The notes beneath the pieces are model-generated. The model saw nothing but the letters and a program-made list of their open reading frames with translations. It was not told the DNA's origin and did not search any database. Shown here one piece after another: positions 17,798-26,348 of a stretch of 39,177 nucleotides of DNA (the stretch's first letter is position 1; the number at the start of each line of letters is the position of its first letter). The stretch spans positions 1 to 39,177 of the forward strand of contig JAKLDK010000005.1 of assembly GCA_022703565.1 (NCBI GenBank). Direction: 5' to 3'. The DNA is from Candidatus Omnitrophota bacterium (GTDB lineage: Bacteria > Omnitrophota > Gorgyraeia > Zapsychrales > Zapsychraceae). Position numbers and translations under genes: made by a program.

Positions 17798-19087
17798 ATG
17801 CTAAATTTGAAAGATAAGAAAATAACAATTGTCGGCGCGCAAAAAAGCGGAATTGCGATTGCGGAGTTGGTTTTATCTTTGGGCGGAATCCCTAAGATGA
17901 CTGAAAAGAAAAAGCCAGAAGATTTGAATCCGGAAGTTTTAAGATTTTTGCAGAATAATAGTATTGCGCTTGAATGCGGCGGGCATACTAAAGAATTTGT
18001 GGCGGATAGCTATTTGCTTGTCTTAAGCCCGGGTGTGCGTTTTGACTTGCCGACGGTAATTTGGGCAAAAGAGAATAAAATACCGGTTTTAGGCGAAATA
18101 GAATTTGCTTTTCAATTTTGCGATAAACCAGTTATTGCTATTACTGGCAGTAATGGGAAGACAACTACAGTTACTTTGACTGATAAAATAATTAAGGAAG
18201 CGGGTTTCAAATCCTGCCTTTGCGGAAATATCGGAAGCCCATTCTCAAAGTTTGCTTTGCAATCAGACAGTTTTGATTATTTTGTTTTGGAGGTAAGCTC
18301 TTTTCAGATGGAATCGTTATTAGCTAAAGATAATAAGGAAGGTTTTAAGAAATTTAAACCTTTTATCGCGGCAATTCTAAACTTTAATCAAAATCATCTT
18401 GATCGGCATAAAGATATGGATGAATATTTTGAGGCGAAAGCCCGGATATTCCAGAATCAGTATAAAAATGATTTTGCGGTATTAAATCATTCTAGTGAGA
18501 AACTAAAATTTTTAGCCCAGAAATTAAGTTCAAAAGTAGTATTTTTTAACGACGATAGAGACAATAAATTCTCGGACAATCAAAATCATTTGGCGGTTTT
18601 AGCCATTGCCAATATCCTGAAAATAAAACCGGAAATTTGTAAGAAAGTTTTTTCGGAGTTTAAAGGGGTGGAACATCGTTTGGAATGGGTCAGGAATTTA
18701 GATGGAGTTGAATATATCAATGATTCTAAATCTACAACGGCCGAGGCGGGTGAATGGGCCATAAATAGAATGACTAAGCCGATTGTAATGATTTGCGGAG
18801 GCTCCGATAAACATCTTGATTATTCTTGGCTAAAAAAGTTAGTTAAGGATAAGGTGAAAACAATGATTGTTATCGGCGATATCAAGGGCCAGTTGAAAAA
18901 TACTTTTGCCGATGTTGTTAATGTTATCGAGGGCGAATCGTTTGAAGCGGCGGTAAAATTAGCGCAAAATAACTCGACGAATGGAGATTGCGTTTTGTTG
19001 AGCCCGATGACGGCTAGTTTTGATATGTTTGATAATTTTGAAGAGCGTGGCAAAGTGTTTAAACAGATAGTAAATAAACTTAAATAA
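17798..19087 (+). CDS. murD: UDP-MurNAc-L-Ala:D-Glu ligase MurD
   Basis: MurD adds D-Glu to UDP-MurNAc-L-Ala in the cytoplasm. The 429-aa protein has a Rossmann-like N-terminal domain (VGAQKSGIAIAELV), the P-loop ITGSNGKTTTVTLTD, NFNQNHLDRH, a Mur-ligase hinge with GVEHRLEWV, NDSKSTTAEA and ICGGSDKHLDY near the end. The order and the NDSKSTT motif separate it from the other Mur ligases of this cluster. One base separates it from mraY and one from ftsW. Confidence 0.95.
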   Translation: MLNLKDKKITIVGAQKSGIAIAELVLSLGGIPKMTEKKKPEDLNPEVLRFLQNNSIALECGGHTKEFVADSYLLVLSPGVRFDLPTVIWAKENKIPVLGEIEFAFQFCDKPVIAITGSNGKTTTVTLTDKIIKEAGFKSCLCGNIGSPFSKFALQSDSFDYFVLEVSSFQMESLLAKDNKEGFKKFKPFIAAILNFNQNHLDRHKDMDEYFEAKARIFQNQYKNDFAVLNHSSEKLKFLAQKLSSKVVFFNDDRDNKFSDNQNHLAVLAIANILKIKPEICKKVFSEFKGVEHRLEWVRNLDGVEYINDSKSTTAEAGEWAINRMTKPIVMICGGSDKHLDYSWLKKLVKDKVKTMIVIGDIKGQLKNTFADVVNVIEGESFEAAVKLAQNNSTNGDCVLLSPMTASFDMFDNFEERGKVFKQIVNKLK

Positions 19088-19088
19088 A

Positions 19089-20177
19089 ATGAAAAGTATC
19101 CGTACCTCTATCGCGACAATATTGATTTTGCTTTTGAGCATTGGGGTTATTATGATCTACAGCTCAAGCGGAATTTATGCCCGGCAGGAAATGGGAGATT
19201 CTACCTATTTTCTAGTACGGCATATTCTTTTTCTTTTTATCGGGTTTATTTTTATGTTTTTTAGCATGTCTTTTGACTATCGCCGGATACAACCATATTC
19301 AAAGGTAATTTTGTTGGTATCAATATTCTTGTTGGCTTTGGTATTGATTCCTCATATTGGGAAAACAAGTTATGGTGCCCGCCGTTGGTTTAAGATTGGG
19401 CCATTTAGTTTTCAGCCTTCAGAAATGGCTAAAATAGCGATGTTGATATATGTCGCTGATTTTCTTTCTCGGAAAAAAGAAAGAATTCTATATTTTTGGG
19501 AAGGTTTTGTTCCGCTTATCTTAGCGATGGGAGTTGTTTGCGTGCTGATAGTAAAGGAGCCTGATTTGGGAAATGCGGTTCTTATCGGGATGATTACGTT
19601 AATTGTTATGTATATCTCCGGAGCTAGTGTTTTGCATATTGCTTCTTTGGGGATAATGGCTCTGCCGGCATTATATTATTTAGTTTTTAGAGTGCCTTAT
19701 CGTTTAGCTCGTATGATGGCTTTTTGGAATCCGAATGAAGATGTAAAAGGGATTGGATTTCAACTCTATCAGTCACAGATTGCTTTGGGTTCGGGCGGAA
19801 TCTTTGGAGTTGGTTTAGGGCAAAGTAAGCAGAAACTATTATATTTGCCGGCGGCACATACTGATTTTATATTGTCGATTATTGGGGAAGAATTCGGTTT
19901 AATCGGGACATTGGCGGTAATCATTCTTTTTGTTTTATTTATTTGGCAAGGGGCAAGAATTGCAAAAAGGACAGTTGACCCGTTTGGTTATTATCTGGCC
20001 ATTGGAATAATTTCGATGATTGGATTGCAAGCAGTAATAAATATAGGCGTTAGTATTGGCGCTTTGCCGACCAAGGGCTTGCCGCTTCCTTTTGTAAGTT
20101 ATGGCGGTTCGGCTTTAATTTTTAACATGATGGCAGTAGGATTCCTACTAAATATTTCACGGATACAGGATTTATGA
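19089..20177 (+). CDS. ftsW: Septal peptidoglycan glycosyltransferase FtsW
   Basis: FtsW is the SEDS-family polymerase of septal glycan strands, working with FtsI. The 362-aa protein has about ten membrane segments and the family motifs GARRWFKIGPFSFQPSEMAK, VKEPDLGNAV, the GIGFQLYQSQIALGSGG loop, HTDFILSIIGEEFG and the C-terminal KGLPLPFVSYGGSAL. Location between murD and murG is standard for ftsW and argues against the related RodA. Its stop overlaps murG by four bases (ATGA). Confidence 0.95.
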   Translation: MKSIRTSIATILILLLSIGVIMIYSSSGIYARQEMGDSTYFLVRHILFLFIGFIFMFFSMSFDYRRIQPYSKVILLVSIFLLALVLIPHIGKTSYGARRWFKIGPFSFQPSEMAKIAMLIYVADFLSRKKERILYFWEGFVPLILAMGVVCVLIVKEPDLGNAVLIGMITLIVMYISGASVLHIASLGIMALPALYYLVFRVPYRLARMMAFWNPNEDVKGIGFQLYQSQIALGSGGIFGVGLGQSKQKLLYLPAAHTDFILSIIGEEFGLIGTLAVIILFVLFIWQGARIAKRTVDPFGYYLAIGIISMIGLQAVINIGVSIGALPTKGLPLPFVSYGGSALIFNMMAVGFLLNISRIQDL

Positions 20178-21253
20178 AAATTATATTAGCTACTGGTGGT
20201 TCAGGCGGGCATTTATTCCCGGCAATTAAAGTCGCGGAAAGTTTAAGGCAAAAAGGATATAAAACTCTTTTTATAGGTTCTTTTGCCATGACGAGGGACC
20301 ACTTAACAAAAAGAGGGTTGGATTATATTGATTTAAATTTAAAAGGTATAAATCTTAGAGATATAAAAGGTACAGTTCAGGCGATTTGGCTGTCTGTAAA
20401 AGCTTTTTTTACTACTGTAAGTTTGTTGAGAAAAGTTAAACCAAACGCGGTTTGTGGTTTTGGCGGATTTTCTTCATTCGCGGTTGTTTGTGCGGCAAAG
20501 TTTTTACGCATTCCCTGCCTAATTCATGAACAAAATGTTCTGCCCGGGCGAGCCAACAAGATATTGGCTAAGTTGGCGGATGAGATATTAATCAGTTTTA
20601 GCCAGACTTTTAATTATTTTAATAAAAAGAAAACAATGCATGTTGGTTGCCCTATTCAGGCTAAGAAGACTAATTGTTCTCGTGAGCAATTGTTGCGCCA
20701 ATTTAATTTGAGTGTGGATTTGAAAACTATATTTGTTTTCGGCGGCAGCCAGGGCAGCGTGCAGATTAATCGAGTTTTTACCAAAGCTTGCGAATTATTA
20801 AAAAAAGATTTTAATTTTCAGGTGATTCATTTATGCGGAAAGAATGATTATGAGCAAATGAAGAAATATTATTCAACCAGTAACATCAAATATGCTCTTT
20901 TTACATTTTTGGAAAATATTGCCGAAGCTTTGGAAGTTTGTGATTTAGTTATTTCTCGTTCGGGGGCTGTTTCTGTTACTGAAATATCCGCGTTTAAAGT
21001 GCCGAGCATATTAATTCCTTATCCGCATGCCTCCGGACATCAATTAGCTAATGCTAAGGTTTTAACCGATAAAGGGATGGCCTTCTTGCTCGAAGATAAA
21101 GATTTAACTGAGCATCGATTGCGCGATATTGTAATTAAGGCGATAAATAACCGGGAAAATATTATAAATAAGCTGAATTCCGATGATAATGATATTAATT
21201 TCTCGAATGCGGCTGAACGTATAAGTGAAGAAATGATAAAGTTAGCCCGATGA
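20174..21253 (+). CDS. murG: Lipid II synthase MurG (GlcNAc transferase)
   Basis: MurG adds GlcNAc to lipid I on the inner face of the membrane, making lipid II. The 359-aa GT-B enzyme shows the glycine-rich loop ATGGSGGHLFPA at the N-terminus, GFGGFSS, HEQNVLPGRANK, the GGSQGSVQINR motif opening the C-terminal domain, and SRSGAVSVTEISAF with PYPHASGHQLANA, the UDP-GlcNAc-binding region. AGGA lies before ATG 20174, and its stop overlaps the next gene by four bases. Confidence 0.96.
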   Translation: MKIILATGGSGGHLFPAIKVAESLRQKGYKTLFIGSFAMTRDHLTKRGLDYIDLNLKGINLRDIKGTVQAIWLSVKAFFTTVSLLRKVKPNAVCGFGGFSSFAVVCAAKFLRIPCLIHEQNVLPGRANKILAKLADEILISFSQTFNYFNKKKTMHVGCPIQAKKTNCSREQLLRQFNLSVDLKTIFVFGGSQGSVQINRVFTKACELLKKDFNFQVIHLCGKNDYEQMKKYYSTSNIKYALFTFLENIAEALEVCDLVISRSGAVSVTEISAFKVPSILIPYPHASGHQLANAKVLTDKGMAFLLEDKDLTEHRLRDIVIKAINNRENIINKLNSDDNDINFSNAAERISEEMIKLAR

Positions 21254-22035
21254 TTAAATATAAGAAATATGTTTTATGTTTGTTGTTTCTAACTATTTTA
21301 TTTATTCCGTACGGTTTTGCTGACGAGTGGAAAGAGTTTGGGCGGGGAAGGCATTTTAAGATTTATTATGATAAGGCTCCGGAAGATTTTGTAAAAAAGG
21401 TTAGTAAATATTCCGAGGAATCTTTTAACGAGATTATGCGGAATTTGGGATTTGCGAAATATAAAGAATGGAAATGGGATAAAGATATTAAGGTCTATGT
21501 TTATAACGATATGGATAGTTACCGGGAGGAAGCCTCGCATATTAAATGGTCGCACGGCTCAGCTTTGGTTCGAGAGAAGGTTATTTTAACGTTTCCTTCG
21601 GCACATGGATTTTTTGATTCAACGTTACCTCATGAATTAGGGCATATAATATTTCGGGAATTTATCGGGCAAGATACAGTTGTACCTTTGTGGTTGGAAG
21701 AAGGGGTTGCGATGTATCAAGAAACTGCGCGCAGGTTTGGCGCTGATGAGATTATCAAAAAAGCAATTTCCGAGGGGAAATTTATACCGCTTACCGAATT
21801 GTCTAACATGGGTTTACATAATAATACTGACCAGGAAAGGCTTTCTCTGTTTTATTCTGAGGCCGCCAGTATTATTAGTTTTATAATTAACGAATTGGGA
21901 GAATTTCGTTTTATGCGCTTTTGCCGGGAATTAGGCCAGGGGACAACTTTTGAAGAAGCCTTGAAATTAGTTTATACTCGTTTTAATAACGTGGAGCAAT
22001 TAAACAAAGCTTGGGTGGAATATATAAACAAATGA
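21250..22035 (+). CDS. Secreted gluzincin-type metallopeptidase (peptidase MA-like)
   Basis: A 261-aa protein with an N-terminal signal sequence (about residues 1-24, hydrophobic core VLCLLFLTILFI, possible cleavage near GFA-D), so it should act in the periplasm. The zinc motif HELGH (H128, E129, H132) is followed by PLWLEEGVAMY, where E151 fits the third ligand seen in peptidase MA/gluzincin proteins. It begins in an ATGA overlap with murG and ends in an ATGA overlap with murC, so it is translationally locked into the cell wall operon. A role in peptidoglycan or divisome protein processing is inference; the substrate is unknown. Confidence 0.8.
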   Translation: MIKYKKYVLCLLFLTILFIPYGFADEWKEFGRGRHFKIYYDKAPEDFVKKVSKYSEESFNEIMRNLGFAKYKEWKWDKDIKVYVYNDMDSYREEASHIKWSHGSALVREKVILTFPSAHGFFDSTLPHELGHIIFREFIGQDTVVPLWLEEGVAMYQETARRFGADEIIKKAISEGKFIPLTELSNMGLHNNTDQERLSLFYSEAASIISFIINELGEFRFMRFCRELGQGTTFEEALKLVYTRFNNVEQLNKAWVEYINK

Positions 22036-23426
22036 GCAAACAATATCATTTTATCGGAATAGGCGGTATCGGAATGGGGGCAATCGCTTCCATTTTATTA
22101 GACAAAGGTTTGGGGGTAAGCGGGTCGGATCTTGTTGAAAATAGGATAACTTTAAATTTAAAAGAAAAGGGCGCGAAAGTATTCTTGGGGCATAAGAAGG
22201 AGAATATCGACGGAGCTGATATTATTGTTTATTCGTCAGCTGTGAAAAAAGATAACCCGGAAGTAATTTCTGCCAAAGAAAAGAATCTACTGGTTATTCC
22301 CCGGGCAAAATTGCTGGCTGAATTAATGGAGGAACATACCGGTATCACAGTGGCCGGGGCGCATGGTAAAACTACAACGACATCAATGGTGGCCAATCTT
22401 TTAATAAAAGCAAAGTTTTGTCCAACAACTACTATCGGGGGTATATTAAAGAATATTGATACCAACGCGAGTTTAGGCAAAAGCGAATATTTTGTCTCGG
22501 AATTAGATGAAAGCGACGGTTCATTTTTATATTTCTCGCCGCAATATTCAATCATAACGAATATTGACCGCGAGCATATGGATTTTTATTTGACCTGGGA
22601 AAGCATTTTAAAAGCTTACGAGGATTTTATTAGAAAGACCAAAGAAGATGGTTTGATTATTGCTTGCGGTGATGATGTTAATTTAAATAATTTACTTAAG
22701 AAGTCTAACCGCAAATTTATCAGTTATGGTTTTACGCAAGTTAATGATTATTTGGCGCTTAATATCAAAAGTGAAGGTTTTACGACTAATTTTGATTGTT
22801 TTAAATCCGGCGAGAAATTGGGCAACATCACCTTGAATATTCCGGGTCGGCATAATGTTTTAAATGCTTTAGCGGCAATTGTCTTAGGGCTGGAATTAAG
22901 AATAGATTTTAATTTGATAAAAAAGAGTTTGGCGGAGTTTGCCGGAGTTAGACGGCGGTTAGATGTCAAAGGCCAAGTAAATGATATTATGGTAATAGAT
23001 GATTATGGGCATCATCCGACCGAAATCAAGGCGACACTGGCGGCTGTTAATTCCCTGAGGAAAGAAAGGCTTATAACTGTTTTTCAACCGCATCGCTATA
23101 CCCGGCTTTTTCATTTGATGGAAGATTTTTCTACGAGCTTATTAGATTGCGATTTTCTGGTTATTACTGATATTTATGCGGCCAGTGAAAAACCCATAGA
23201 AAATGTTAGTTCGGAAAATTTATGTGATAAAATAAAAGAAAAAGGGAATAAAAACGTAATATATCTGCCCAAGGATAAGATATTATCCTTTTTGCTTGAT
23301 TTTATAAAGCCGGGAGATATTGTATTAACTTTAGGAGCGGGCGATATTACAAAAATATCAGATCAAATAGTAGATAAATTAAACCAGCGTCTATCCAAAA
23401 AAGAGGAGAAAAAAGATGAGCGATAA
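22032..23426 (+). CDS. murC: UDP-MurNAc:L-Ala ligase MurC
   Basis: MurC adds L-Ala to UDP-MurNAc, the first step of stem-peptide assembly. The 464-aa protein starts with the glycine-rich FIGIGGIGMGAIA, then GSDLVENRIT, the P-loop VAGAHGKTTTTSM, SELDESDGSF, IDDYGHHPTEIKAT and FQPHRYTR, all specific to MurC. ATG 22032 was chosen because it overlaps the previous stop and gives the normal N-terminus; an upstream in-frame start (22011) would add seven residues. It overlaps ddl by 11 nt. Confidence 0.96.
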   Translation: MSKQYHFIGIGGIGMGAIASILLDKGLGVSGSDLVENRITLNLKEKGAKVFLGHKKENIDGADIIVYSSAVKKDNPEVISAKEKNLLVIPRAKLLAELMEEHTGITVAGAHGKTTTTSMVANLLIKAKFCPTTTIGGILKNIDTNASLGKSEYFVSELDESDGSFLYFSPQYSIITNIDREHMDFYLTWESILKAYEDFIRKTKEDGLIIACGDDVNLNNLLKKSNRKFISYGFTQVNDYLALNIKSEGFTTNFDCFKSGEKLGNITLNIPGRHNVLNALAAIVLGLELRIDFNLIKKSLAEFAGVRRRLDVKGQVNDIMVIDDYGHHPTEIKATLAAVNSLRKERLITVFQPHRYTRLFHLMEDFSTSLLDCDFLVITDIYAASEKPIENVSSENLCDKIKEKGNKNVIYLPKDKILSFLLDFIKPGDIVLTLGAGDITKISDQIVDKLNQRLSKKEEKKDER

Positions 23427-24395
23427 TCTTTACCGGTTTGGACGTATTGGTGTTTTGATGGGCGGTTATTCTTCCGAGCGGGAAGTTTCTTTGAAATCAG
23501 GTACTGCAATTTATGAATCTTTGCTGTCGCAAGGGCTTAATGTTGCGGCTGTTGATATTAATACTAGTGATTTGAATAAAATAAAATTGCAGCTTTTAGA
23601 GTCGCGCATTGATATTGCTTTTATTGCTTTGCATGGCAAATTGGGCGAGGATGGAGTAATCCAGTCAATTTTAGAGGATTTATGCATTTCTTATGTCGGT
23701 TCGGGCGTTAAGGCCAGCCAATTAGCGATTAATAAATTAACAGCGCATCAAGTTTTTAGGGAAAACAATATTCCGACTGCGAAGTATATTTCTCTTTTAA
23801 ATACGGATAAGATTAATTTGGAGAAAATAATTAATGACTTGGATGGATTTCCTTTGGTTATAAGCCCGCATCTGAAGGCTCAAGCATTGGTATTAGCATT
23901 GCCAGAAATATTAATGAGTTTGAACTCGGATTAACCGAAGCTTTTAAATATGACAATAGTGTTTTAGTAGAGCAATTCATAAAAGGACGAGAGCTCACGG
24001 TTGGAATTCTAGGCAATAAAGCGTTGCCGATTGTTGAAATAATTCCAAAACGCGAATTCTTCGATTTTACGGCAAAATATCAAAAAGGTTTAACGGATTA
24101 TATTGTCCCGGCGCAAATTGATGATGAGATAAAAGTGCGTATGCAAAATTTGGCTCTGGAAGCGCATCAGGCGTTAGGTTGCCGTGATTTCTCCCGGGTT
24201 GATATTATTTTAAGCGATGAGGGAATAGGTTATGTACTGGAAGTAAATACTATTCCCGGTTTTACTGCAACCAGTTTGTTACCTAAGGCGGCTAAGGCCG
24301 ATAATATTAGTTTTAATCAACTTTGTTTTTGTTTGATAGAAATGGCATATGGCAAGAAAAAGATTGAAAATCAAAATATCGCCGTCAGCAATTAA
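23416..24395 (+). pseudogene. ddl: D-Ala-D-Ala ligase Ddl, interrupted by a one-base frameshift
   Basis: Ddl joins two D-Ala residues for MurF. The first 149 codons (23416-23862) give a normal N-terminus (VLMGGYSSEREVSLKSG, ALHGKLGEDG, YVGSGVKAS, FPLVI). After 23862 the frame must change by one base to continue as K-P-A-S-E-G-S-S-I-G-I-S, the expected ATP-binding loop, then ELTVGILG, IIPKREFFDFTAKY and VLEVNTIPGFTATS to the stop at 24395. One A is missing from a Lys codon in the run ATA-AG. Restoring it gives 326 aa, normal for Ddl. GAGGAG precedes ATG 23416. An assembly error is likelier than true decay, since the rest is well conserved. Confidence 0.88.
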
Positions 24396-25107
24396 GATTT
24401 TTATTGTTCCTCTGCTTGTTTTTGGGATCAGTTTCGGAATTTTTCAGGGAATTTTATATTGGGCCTCACATAGCGAATATTTTAGAATTAAAGCGGTTGT
24501 GATTGACCCGGCATTGCAGTTTATTAATCTGCGCGACGTAAATTATTTAATCGGCGATAATATTTTTGCTGTAAATTTGGAAAGGCTAGAGAGAAAAGTC
24601 GCCAACAAGTATCCTCAGGTTTCCGATTTAAAAGTTACCAAGAAGTTTCCCGATAGAATTTATTTTGAAGCTAGCAAAAGAAATCCTTTGCTTCAGGTTC
24701 TTTTATCCGGCCGGATTTTAACCTTGGATGAGAACGGTATATTGCTTTCTACCATAACTAAAAAAGATGAGCGTCTGCCGCTGGTGGAAGGGTTAAAATC
24801 GTCGGATAAAACAATCCGGCTGGGGTATTATATGGGGGGAAAAGATTTAAAGGCAGTGATAAACTTGGTTAAAGAATTTAATCAAACAAATTCTGCGCAA
24901 ATATGCCGGATTAATACTGTCAATGTGTCTAATATCTCCAAGATTGAGATGGTTTTGTCCAATAAATTAACAATCATCGTCGATAAAGACGATATAAAGC
25001 GCCGGATGAAGATATTGTCGTTTCTGCTTAATCAAGGGCAAATTAATTTAGAAGAAACAAAGTATATCGACTTGCGTTTTAAAGAACCGATTCTGGGGAA
25101 GAAATAA
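24349..25107 (+). CDS. ftsQ: Cell division protein FtsQ
   Basis: FtsQ is a bitopic divisome protein linking early and late division proteins. The 252-aa product has a basic cytoplasmic start, one membrane segment (about 16-38), a POTRA domain (about 45-115: a FRIKAVVIDP strand, then INLRDVNYLIGDNIFAVN and VSDLKVTKKFPDRIYFEA) and an FtsQ beta domain (LDENGILL, LPLVEG). This order is diagnostic. It begins 47 bases before the ddl stop, and its own stop overlaps the ftsA start (TAATG). Confidence 0.9.
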   Translation: MARKRLKIKISPSAIKIFIVPLLVFGISFGIFQGILYWASHSEYFRIKAVVIDPALQFINLRDVNYLIGDNIFAVNLERLERKVANKYPQVSDLKVTKKFPDRIYFEASKRNPLLQVLLSGRILTLDENGILLSTITKKDERLPLVEGLKSSDKTIRLGYYMGGKDLKAVINLVKEFNQTNSAQICRINTVNVSNISKIEMVLSNKLTIIVDKDDIKRRMKILSFLLNQGQINLEETKYIDLRFKEPILGKK

Positions 25108-26348
25108 TGTTTAGAAAAGTTATGAAACAAAAAGTGTTTTGCGGACTAGACGTTGGAACAAAGACTTTGAAGGCTGCGTTAATAAAAGTTGAGAATAATA
25201 ATCAAAAAGAAATCTTGGCGTTATCTGACCAAAAAACTTATGGGATAAAAGATAGCGCTATTTCTAATTTAAGCGAAGTGTCTGAATGCATTCAGAAGGT
25301 TCTAGATGAATTGCTAAAAATGAATAAAGCCAAATTTAAAATAGTTAACATCGGAATCAATGCGAGTTTAGTTAATATCCGTCGGACGACAAGTGTAATA
25401 CCGCTTTTAGATAAGAATGGAAAGATAATTTCCGCTCGTGATATAGATTTGGTTAATAATAATGCCAAATTAATCGGGATGAAGTTGGAAGAAGAGGTTT
25501 TACATAATTTGCCGGAATATTATATTGTTAACGATGATAATCAGGCCATCAATCCAACCGGGCTGTATGCGAAGAAGCTTGGCGTAGTATCTCTTTTGGC
25601 AATAACCAATGTTAATTTTCTGCGAAATTTAACCCGGGCCGTTAATCAGGCCGGATATGAGGTTGATAAAATTACTTTTAATGACTATAGCGCGTCTGAT
25701 GTTGTTTTAAGCGAAGATGATAAAAAAGAAGGCGTCCTTCTGATTGATATAGGATCTCAAATTACTAGCCTGGTATTTTTTAAAGATGGAGTCTTTAAAT
25801 TCTTAGAGAAAATAAGTATCGGGAGTGATAATTTTACCTTGAAAATCGCAGAGAAACTGAATCTTAATTTTGATTTAGCTGAGGAGATCAAGAAGACTTA
25901 TGCGATTGCCTCGAGTTCGGAAAAATATAGTCAGGAAGAAATTTTAATTAAAAGAGAGAACAATTATTATCCGATAAAACGGGAGTTGATATATCAGGCG
26001 ATTGAAGGCGAAATTTATTTTATGATTGAAGCGATTAAGGAGATAATTGTTAAAAATGGGATTGCTAGTCAAATTAACAAAGGGATAACTTTTATCGGCG
26101 GAGGTTCGTTGTTGCCGGGCTTGATTGAGAAGATTGGCGCGGAGGTAAAGCATACGGTAAAACTGGGTAAAGCCACGGGGATTTCATATAAAAATATTTA
26201 TAAAGGCCCATCCTATGCTTCGGCTATCGGCATAGCTTCTAGCGGTATTAACAAAGGTCTTATCAAAAAGATTATCTCTTCTGAAAAAACTTCAGCTTGG
26301 CAACAGGCGGTCAATAGGTTTAAAGAATTATATTTTGAATACTTTTAG
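25107..26348 (+). CDS. ftsA: Cell division protein FtsA
   Basis: FtsA is the actin-like protein that anchors FtsZ filaments to the membrane. The 413-aa protein shows the ATPase signatures CGLDVGTKTLKAALI (phosphate 1), LLIDIGSQITSLVFF (phosphate 2) and FIGGGSLLPGL (adenosine), with an FtsA-type 1C insertion between the first two. It ends in an amphipathic segment rich in aromatic and basic residues (WQQAVNRFKELYFEYF), the expected membrane-targeting helix. No ftsZ follows; the next gene is on the other strand and the two stop codons overlap. Confidence 0.92.
   Translation: MFRKVMKQKVFCGLDVGTKTLKAALIKVENNNQKEILALSDQKTYGIKDSAISNLSEVSECIQKVLDELLKMNKAKFKIVNIGINASLVNIRRTTSVIPLLDKNGKIISARDIDLVNNNAKLIGMKLEEEVLHNLPEYYIVNDDNQAINPTGLYAKKLGVVSLLAITNVNFLRNLTRAVNQAGYEVDKITFNDYSASDVVLSEDDKKEGVLLIDIGSQITSLVFFKDGVFKFLEKISIGSDNFTLKIAEKLNLNFDLAEEIKKTYAIASSSEKYSQEEILIKRENNYYPIKRELIYQAIEGEIYFMIEAIKEIIVKNGIASQINKGITFIGGGSLLPGLIEKIGAEVKHTVKLGKATGISYKNIYKGPSYASAIGIASSGINKGLIKKIISSEKTSAWQQAVNRFKELYFEYF

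Follow-up and report, generated by a model that had tools for sequence, protein, structure and literature searches.

A predicted exported gluzincin encoded between murG and murC in the dcw cluster of Candidatus Omnitrophota

Results

A peptidase gene within the dcw cluster

Few bacterial gene clusters are as conserved as dcw. The window analyzed here is a stretch of 39,177 nucleotides from a Candidatus Omnitrophota bacterium (assembly GCA_022703565.1, contig JAKLDK010000005.1). It contains a run of dcw genes on one strand, with a gene for a predicted metallopeptidase located between murG and murC. The features are as follows.

17798..19087, + strand: Mur ligase resembling murD, part of this cluster
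19089..20177, + strand: ftsW (PF01098), with a 4-base overlap with murG
20174..21253, + strand: murG; its terminal four bases, ATGA, are shared with the start of the peptidase gene
21250..22035, + strand: Peptidase_MA_2 gene inside dcw, 261 aa (PF13485; H128-E129-L-G-H132, E151, Y202)
22032..23426, + strand: murC; its start ATG is part of the ATGA in which the peptidase gene ends
23416..24395, + strand: ddl (D-Ala-D-Ala ligase); a frame change splits the gene in this contig
24349..26348, + strand: ftsQ and ftsA, dcw genes further downstream

Profile searches identified the two neighbors as murG (TIGR01133, 287.7 bits) and murC (TIGR01082, 528.4 bits). The peptidase matches PF13485 with 61.5 bits for the whole protein, against a curated cut-off of 32.4. 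This is its sole Pfam domain and covers residues 76-260 of 261 amino acids. All 23 orthologues match it as well (E ≤ 0.001). Membership in PF13485 places the protein in a superfamily only. None of the NCBIfam models matched the peptidase at E ≤ 0.01, and no peptidoglycan-hydrolase family was matched in the profile search. The source genome (1.87 Mb in 185 contigs, 92.33% complete) contains one copy of the gene.

The initial annotation reported four-base ATGA overlaps of the peptidase gene with both murG and murC, and took them to tie its translation to cell wall synthesis genes. Both overlaps are read directly in the sequence. A functional tie to wall synthesis does not follow from them. The ftsW/murG junction at 20174-20177 also overlaps by four bases, so the overlaps around the peptidase gene are ordinary operon packing. 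Among related loci, an exact NTGA overlap is found at 40 of 74 murG/peptidase junctions and 32 of 77 peptidase/murC junctions. The gene order is therefore conserved, and the overlap itself is not strict.

Two further features of the cluster were observed. The N- and C-terminal parts of ddl are in different frames at 23416-24395, and, judged by coordinates, both parts share a single frame in a relative (L031); the split is either an assembly error or a broken gene. In addition, no murB separates murC from ddl in the window (at 23426); the gene is located on another contig of the genome (G000:C183:4271-5131). In other orders, a murB-sized open reading frame occupies this place.

Conservation of the murG-peptidase-murC order

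The peptidase gene is located inside the dcw cluster, flanked by dcw genes of its own strand, and this place is conserved among related genomes. A homologue was found in 54 of 55 genomes of the same order (E ≤ 0.001), and 46 of the 55 contain a high-scoring copy (219 bits or more). Forty-four of these copies are located between murG and murC, and the other two (G004 and G028) lose the murG side to a contig end. Across all fetched loci, the strict murG-peptidase-murC order is found in 74 genomes from 18 families, all in one class of uncultured Omnitrophota. Occurrence at the same junction in other genomes, which the initial annotation had left to be checked, is thus not limited to the source genome. 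Beyond these 74, one locus is cut by a contig end (G116), and in three genomes of family f11 murG is the sole recognized neighbor.

The class sample comprises 147 genomes, of which 104 contain some homologue and 43 contain none (E ≤ 1e-6); gene context was read for part of these matches, several fragmentary or weak ones being left unfetched. In the phylum sample, a homologue was found in 94 of 117 genomes (profile search, E ≤ 1e-10). The 23 retrieved loci with an assigned organism all come from Candidatus Omnitrophota/Omnitrophica metagenome-assembled genomes. PF13485 had no match in 14 control genomes.

Nine genomes of the same order have no high-scoring copy. In the assemblies of six (G002, G025, G029, G035, G047 and G052) murC was not found at E ≤ 1e-40, and the murG-murC region is therefore probably missing. 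In the other three (G017, G039 and G042) murG adjoins murC and leaves no room for the peptidase gene. Because these three do without it, the dcw peptidase is not indispensable. All three carry the copy associated with secretion genes described below; a link between loss of the dcw copy and presence of the secretion copy would rest on these three genomes. The 43 genomes of the class sample with no homologue likewise indicate that life without the peptidase is possible in the class.

We also searched for murC in 30 genomes chosen for having shown no dcw copy, and found it in 24. In 23 of these 24, murG is located within 270 bases of murC and no peptidase gene lies between them; in the remaining one (G080) no murG was found. 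Four of the 23 (G213, G196, G223 and G216) belong to other classes. Together, the carriers and the murG-murC junctions that lack the peptidase gene indicate that the dcw copy is a feature of one class in the sample examined.

Putative export signal, active site and predicted fold

The peptidase has a hydrophobic stretch at its N-terminus, approximately residues 1-24, up to the sequence GFA/DE. The N-termini of the A1 orthologues are similar. Its hydropathy and an A-X-A pattern mark this region as a putative signal peptide, consistent with the initial annotation.

The HELGH motif corresponds to residues 128-132 and the downstream sequence WLEEGVA to residues 148-154. H128, E129, H132, E151 and Y202 are conserved in all 178 homologue rows, in which some genes are repeated through overlapping loci. 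From the motif and knowledge of the family, we take E151 to be a zinc ligand and Y202 to be the catalytic tyrosine. The complete zinc site claimed earlier, HExxH plus a downstream glutamate, is thus borne out in every row. In an alignment of 23 rows, the stretches around the active site are nearly invariant.

The initial annotation called for structure prediction as a check on the gluzincin fold. An AlphaFold model of the peptidase, calculated with 23 sequences, has a pLDDT of 87.8 and a pTM of 0.83, with values below 50 at residues 19-22 only. In Foldseek, the peptidase domains of M9 collagenases (E = 9.1e-06) rank among the best matches, together with M1-type enzymes. The best VIA match is an M9 collagenase (8jt1_A; Z = 19.0, 3.7 Å over 238 residues), followed by the M30 enzyme lugdulysin (Z = 14.7) and M1 aminopeptidases (Z about 12-13). 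Fold families absent from these Foldseek and VIA lists were given no evidential weight. The model thus agrees with the expected fold, and the peptidase is predicted to be a gluzincin of the MA(E) type, with HExxH, a downstream glutamate and a thermolysin-like catalytic fold.

The M9 collagenase domains (8jt1, 7zoc and 4ar1), with Z scores up to 19.0, are only 12-15% identical to the peptidase. Searches of PDB chains by phmmer and by profile found no M9 chain at E ≤ 1. M9 collagenases carry additional activator and collagen-binding domains. Unlike them, the peptidase is a single compact domain with a putative signal peptide and without these additional domains. Weak sequence matches in the PDB to TPR designs, a T33_dn2A chain and GAPDH were set aside, which left no usable relative among the solved structures.

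A paralogue in a type II secretion-like operon

The same-order search revealed a second set of peptidases encoded between gspF and gspG, with 27-40% identity to the protein in the window. Products of the surrounding operon match the T2SSE, T2SSF, T2SSG, T2SSK, PilM and PilN families. This context accounts for 38 of the 178 homologue rows, and in the phylum sample it is also found in other classes (L114-L124). One example is located at 6286-7104 of L094, and many of L073-L124 are arranged likewise. Peptidase copies are therefore held by two separate envelope-machine operons, dcw and type II secretion-like. In L094 (75-2520), L117 and L120, ATP-synthase-like gamma and alpha/beta genes lie next to the secretion-like operon.

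The dcw and secretion copies have the same catalytic residues and a mean identity of 33%, and differ in operon and in their place in the tree. Only four positions separate them sharply, and the sequence therefore gives no sign of a dedicated substrate. A strict requirement of the secretion-like operon for its copy was rejected, as the source genome has gspE-gspF-gspG with no peptidase gene in between (L199).

The gene tree follows genomic context. In a tree of 139 rows, from which rows shorter than 200 aa, same-order copies above 60% identity and other copies above 85% identity had been dropped, the dcw label requires 2 changes, compared to a mean of 46.6 after shuffling. The type II secretion label requires 3 (33.3 after shuffling) and the other contexts 4 (28.9). 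A tree of 88 rows, built without six rows that were long or distant, half of the rows with secretion context and most of the dcw rows from the same order, requires 3 changes for the dcw label. Placing all dcw rows in one clade changes the likelihood of this tree by 0.06 log units and is not rejected (p-AU = 0.495). Branch support was assessed by SH-aLRT only. These sequence comparisons are compatible with a single origin of the dcw copy and do not prove it.

Discussion

Proposed role of the dcw peptidase

We propose, with a probability of roughly 0.4, that the peptidase gene has been passed down vertically as part of dcw in one class of Omnitrophota and encodes a periplasmic zinc endopeptidase acting on a protein of the wall or division machinery. 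A copy of an older family of small exported gluzincins would have entered between murG and murC, and its sister copies are found in type II secretion-like operons; this direction of duplication is the one we infer. Translation from one shared message would keep its production in step with that of MurG and MurC. It would be exported by Sec and lose its signal peptide, as its N-terminus suggests, and the mature form would then function as a periplasmic zinc endopeptidase. Its most probable substrate would be a periplasmic protein of the machinery for wall synthesis or division, which it would mature, trim or turn over. The paralogue would do likewise for the secretion machine encoded around it, and its presence in that operon points to a more general role in envelope machines.

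The proposal is supported by the retained slot, the tree that follows context, the invariant catalytic residues, the predicted gluzincin fold, the two envelope-machine operons and, by analogy, the periplasm-acting gluzincin VgrG2b discussed below. Against it, three genomes of the order lack the gene where murG adjoins murC, 43 of the 147 class genomes contain no homologue at E ≤ 1e-6, the dcw and secretion copies differ sharply at only four positions, and the gene may sit in the operon just for expression. The strongest alternative is a general quality-control peptidase for misfolded envelope proteins in the periplasm, placed in dcw only to be expressed steadily during growth. Copies in several unrelated operons and the absence tolerated by three genomes of the order would fit this. 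We consider this unlikely, as the context-specific clades and the strictly retained murG-murC slot suggest a dedicated role.

A peptidoglycan peptide hydrolase would account for the dcw and type II secretion-like contexts together: it would cut stem or cross-link peptides for septation, and the paralogue would clear the wall for the secretion machine. The likely export to the periplasm, as predicted from the N-terminus, agrees with this. However, no peptidoglycan-hydrolase family was matched, the nearest folds (M9, M30 and M1) are those of protein-cleaving enzymes, and a periplasm-acting gluzincin, VgrG2b, is reported to have shown no such activity (PMC6899460). Since the related folds cut proteins and VgrG2b, by analogy, caused blebbing at midcell and showed no wall hydrolysis, a protein substrate seems preferable, and the hydrolase is rather improbable. 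A bolder generalization, which we hold to be improbable, is that Omnitrophota evolved a family of operon-dedicated periplasmic gluzincins, one for the wall and division machinery and one for type II secretion, that locally open or mature the envelope. In that case no gluzincin built into a dcw cluster would have been known before the copy described here, which might also be the first to cut peptidoglycan peptides.

The M9 collagenases as best fold matches, the putative signal peptide and the paralogue in a secretion-like operon could also indicate a peptidase released to obtain nutrients by cleaving proteins from the environment or a host. This is very doubtful. The protein totals 261 aa without the extra collagenase domains and has no sequence match to M9 chains of the PDB, and retention in dcw over 18 families is not expected of such an enzyme. 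Least probable is a passenger gene that has no role in wall synthesis and was inherited after being fixed once in the cluster: operon position by itself is not function and the gene is missing from some genomes, but every catalytic residue is kept in 178 of 178 rows and the slot is retained over 18 families.

Comparison with VgrG2b and relation to published work

The C-terminal domain of VgrG2b, a distant MA(E) gluzincin, offers a comparison for the proposed dcw peptidase. It is reported to act in the periplasm, to cause blebbing at midcell and to have lacked peptidoglycan hydrolase activity when assayed by the authors, with MltC, PBP5 and PBP6a among its candidate interactors (PMC6899460). 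As a periplasm-acting MA(E) gluzincin it resembles the predicted dcw peptidase, and its phenotype is at the division site; the likeness is an analogy. Unlike the dcw peptidase, VgrG2b is a delivered antibacterial type VI effector with an immunity protein.

No paper describing a murG-murC peptidase was found in the literature on Omnitrophota, dcw, gluzincins and type II secretion, a search that most subscription papers fell outside, and a full-text search for PF13485 also found none. The peptidase is not mentioned in the consulted portions of two surveys of division genes in the superphylum (PMC12283558 and PMC5147048), and a term search in the main text of PMC10066038 gave no occurrence. A predicted exported peptidase with an intact active site, encoded between murG and murC, points to a proteolytic step in cell wall construction or division that is so far undescribed. 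As a class-wide extra member of dcw, it suggests a step that model bacteria lack or carry out by other enzymes. The paired copy in the type II secretion-like operon provides a natural comparison toward a shared principle.

Homologues in further contexts

Related peptidases are also found outside the dcw and secretion contexts. Tandem pairs form a tree branch of their own (L181, L182, L184, L185 and L195). A third clade (L086, L088, L090, L091 and L110) is located beside a protein of about 870-1990 aa, as measured from called frames, and near ATP-synthase-like genes. Two homologues (G203:C10:9760-10470 and G223:C32:53019-53777) are located within open frames of 868 and 793 aa, respectively, and are possibly fusions.
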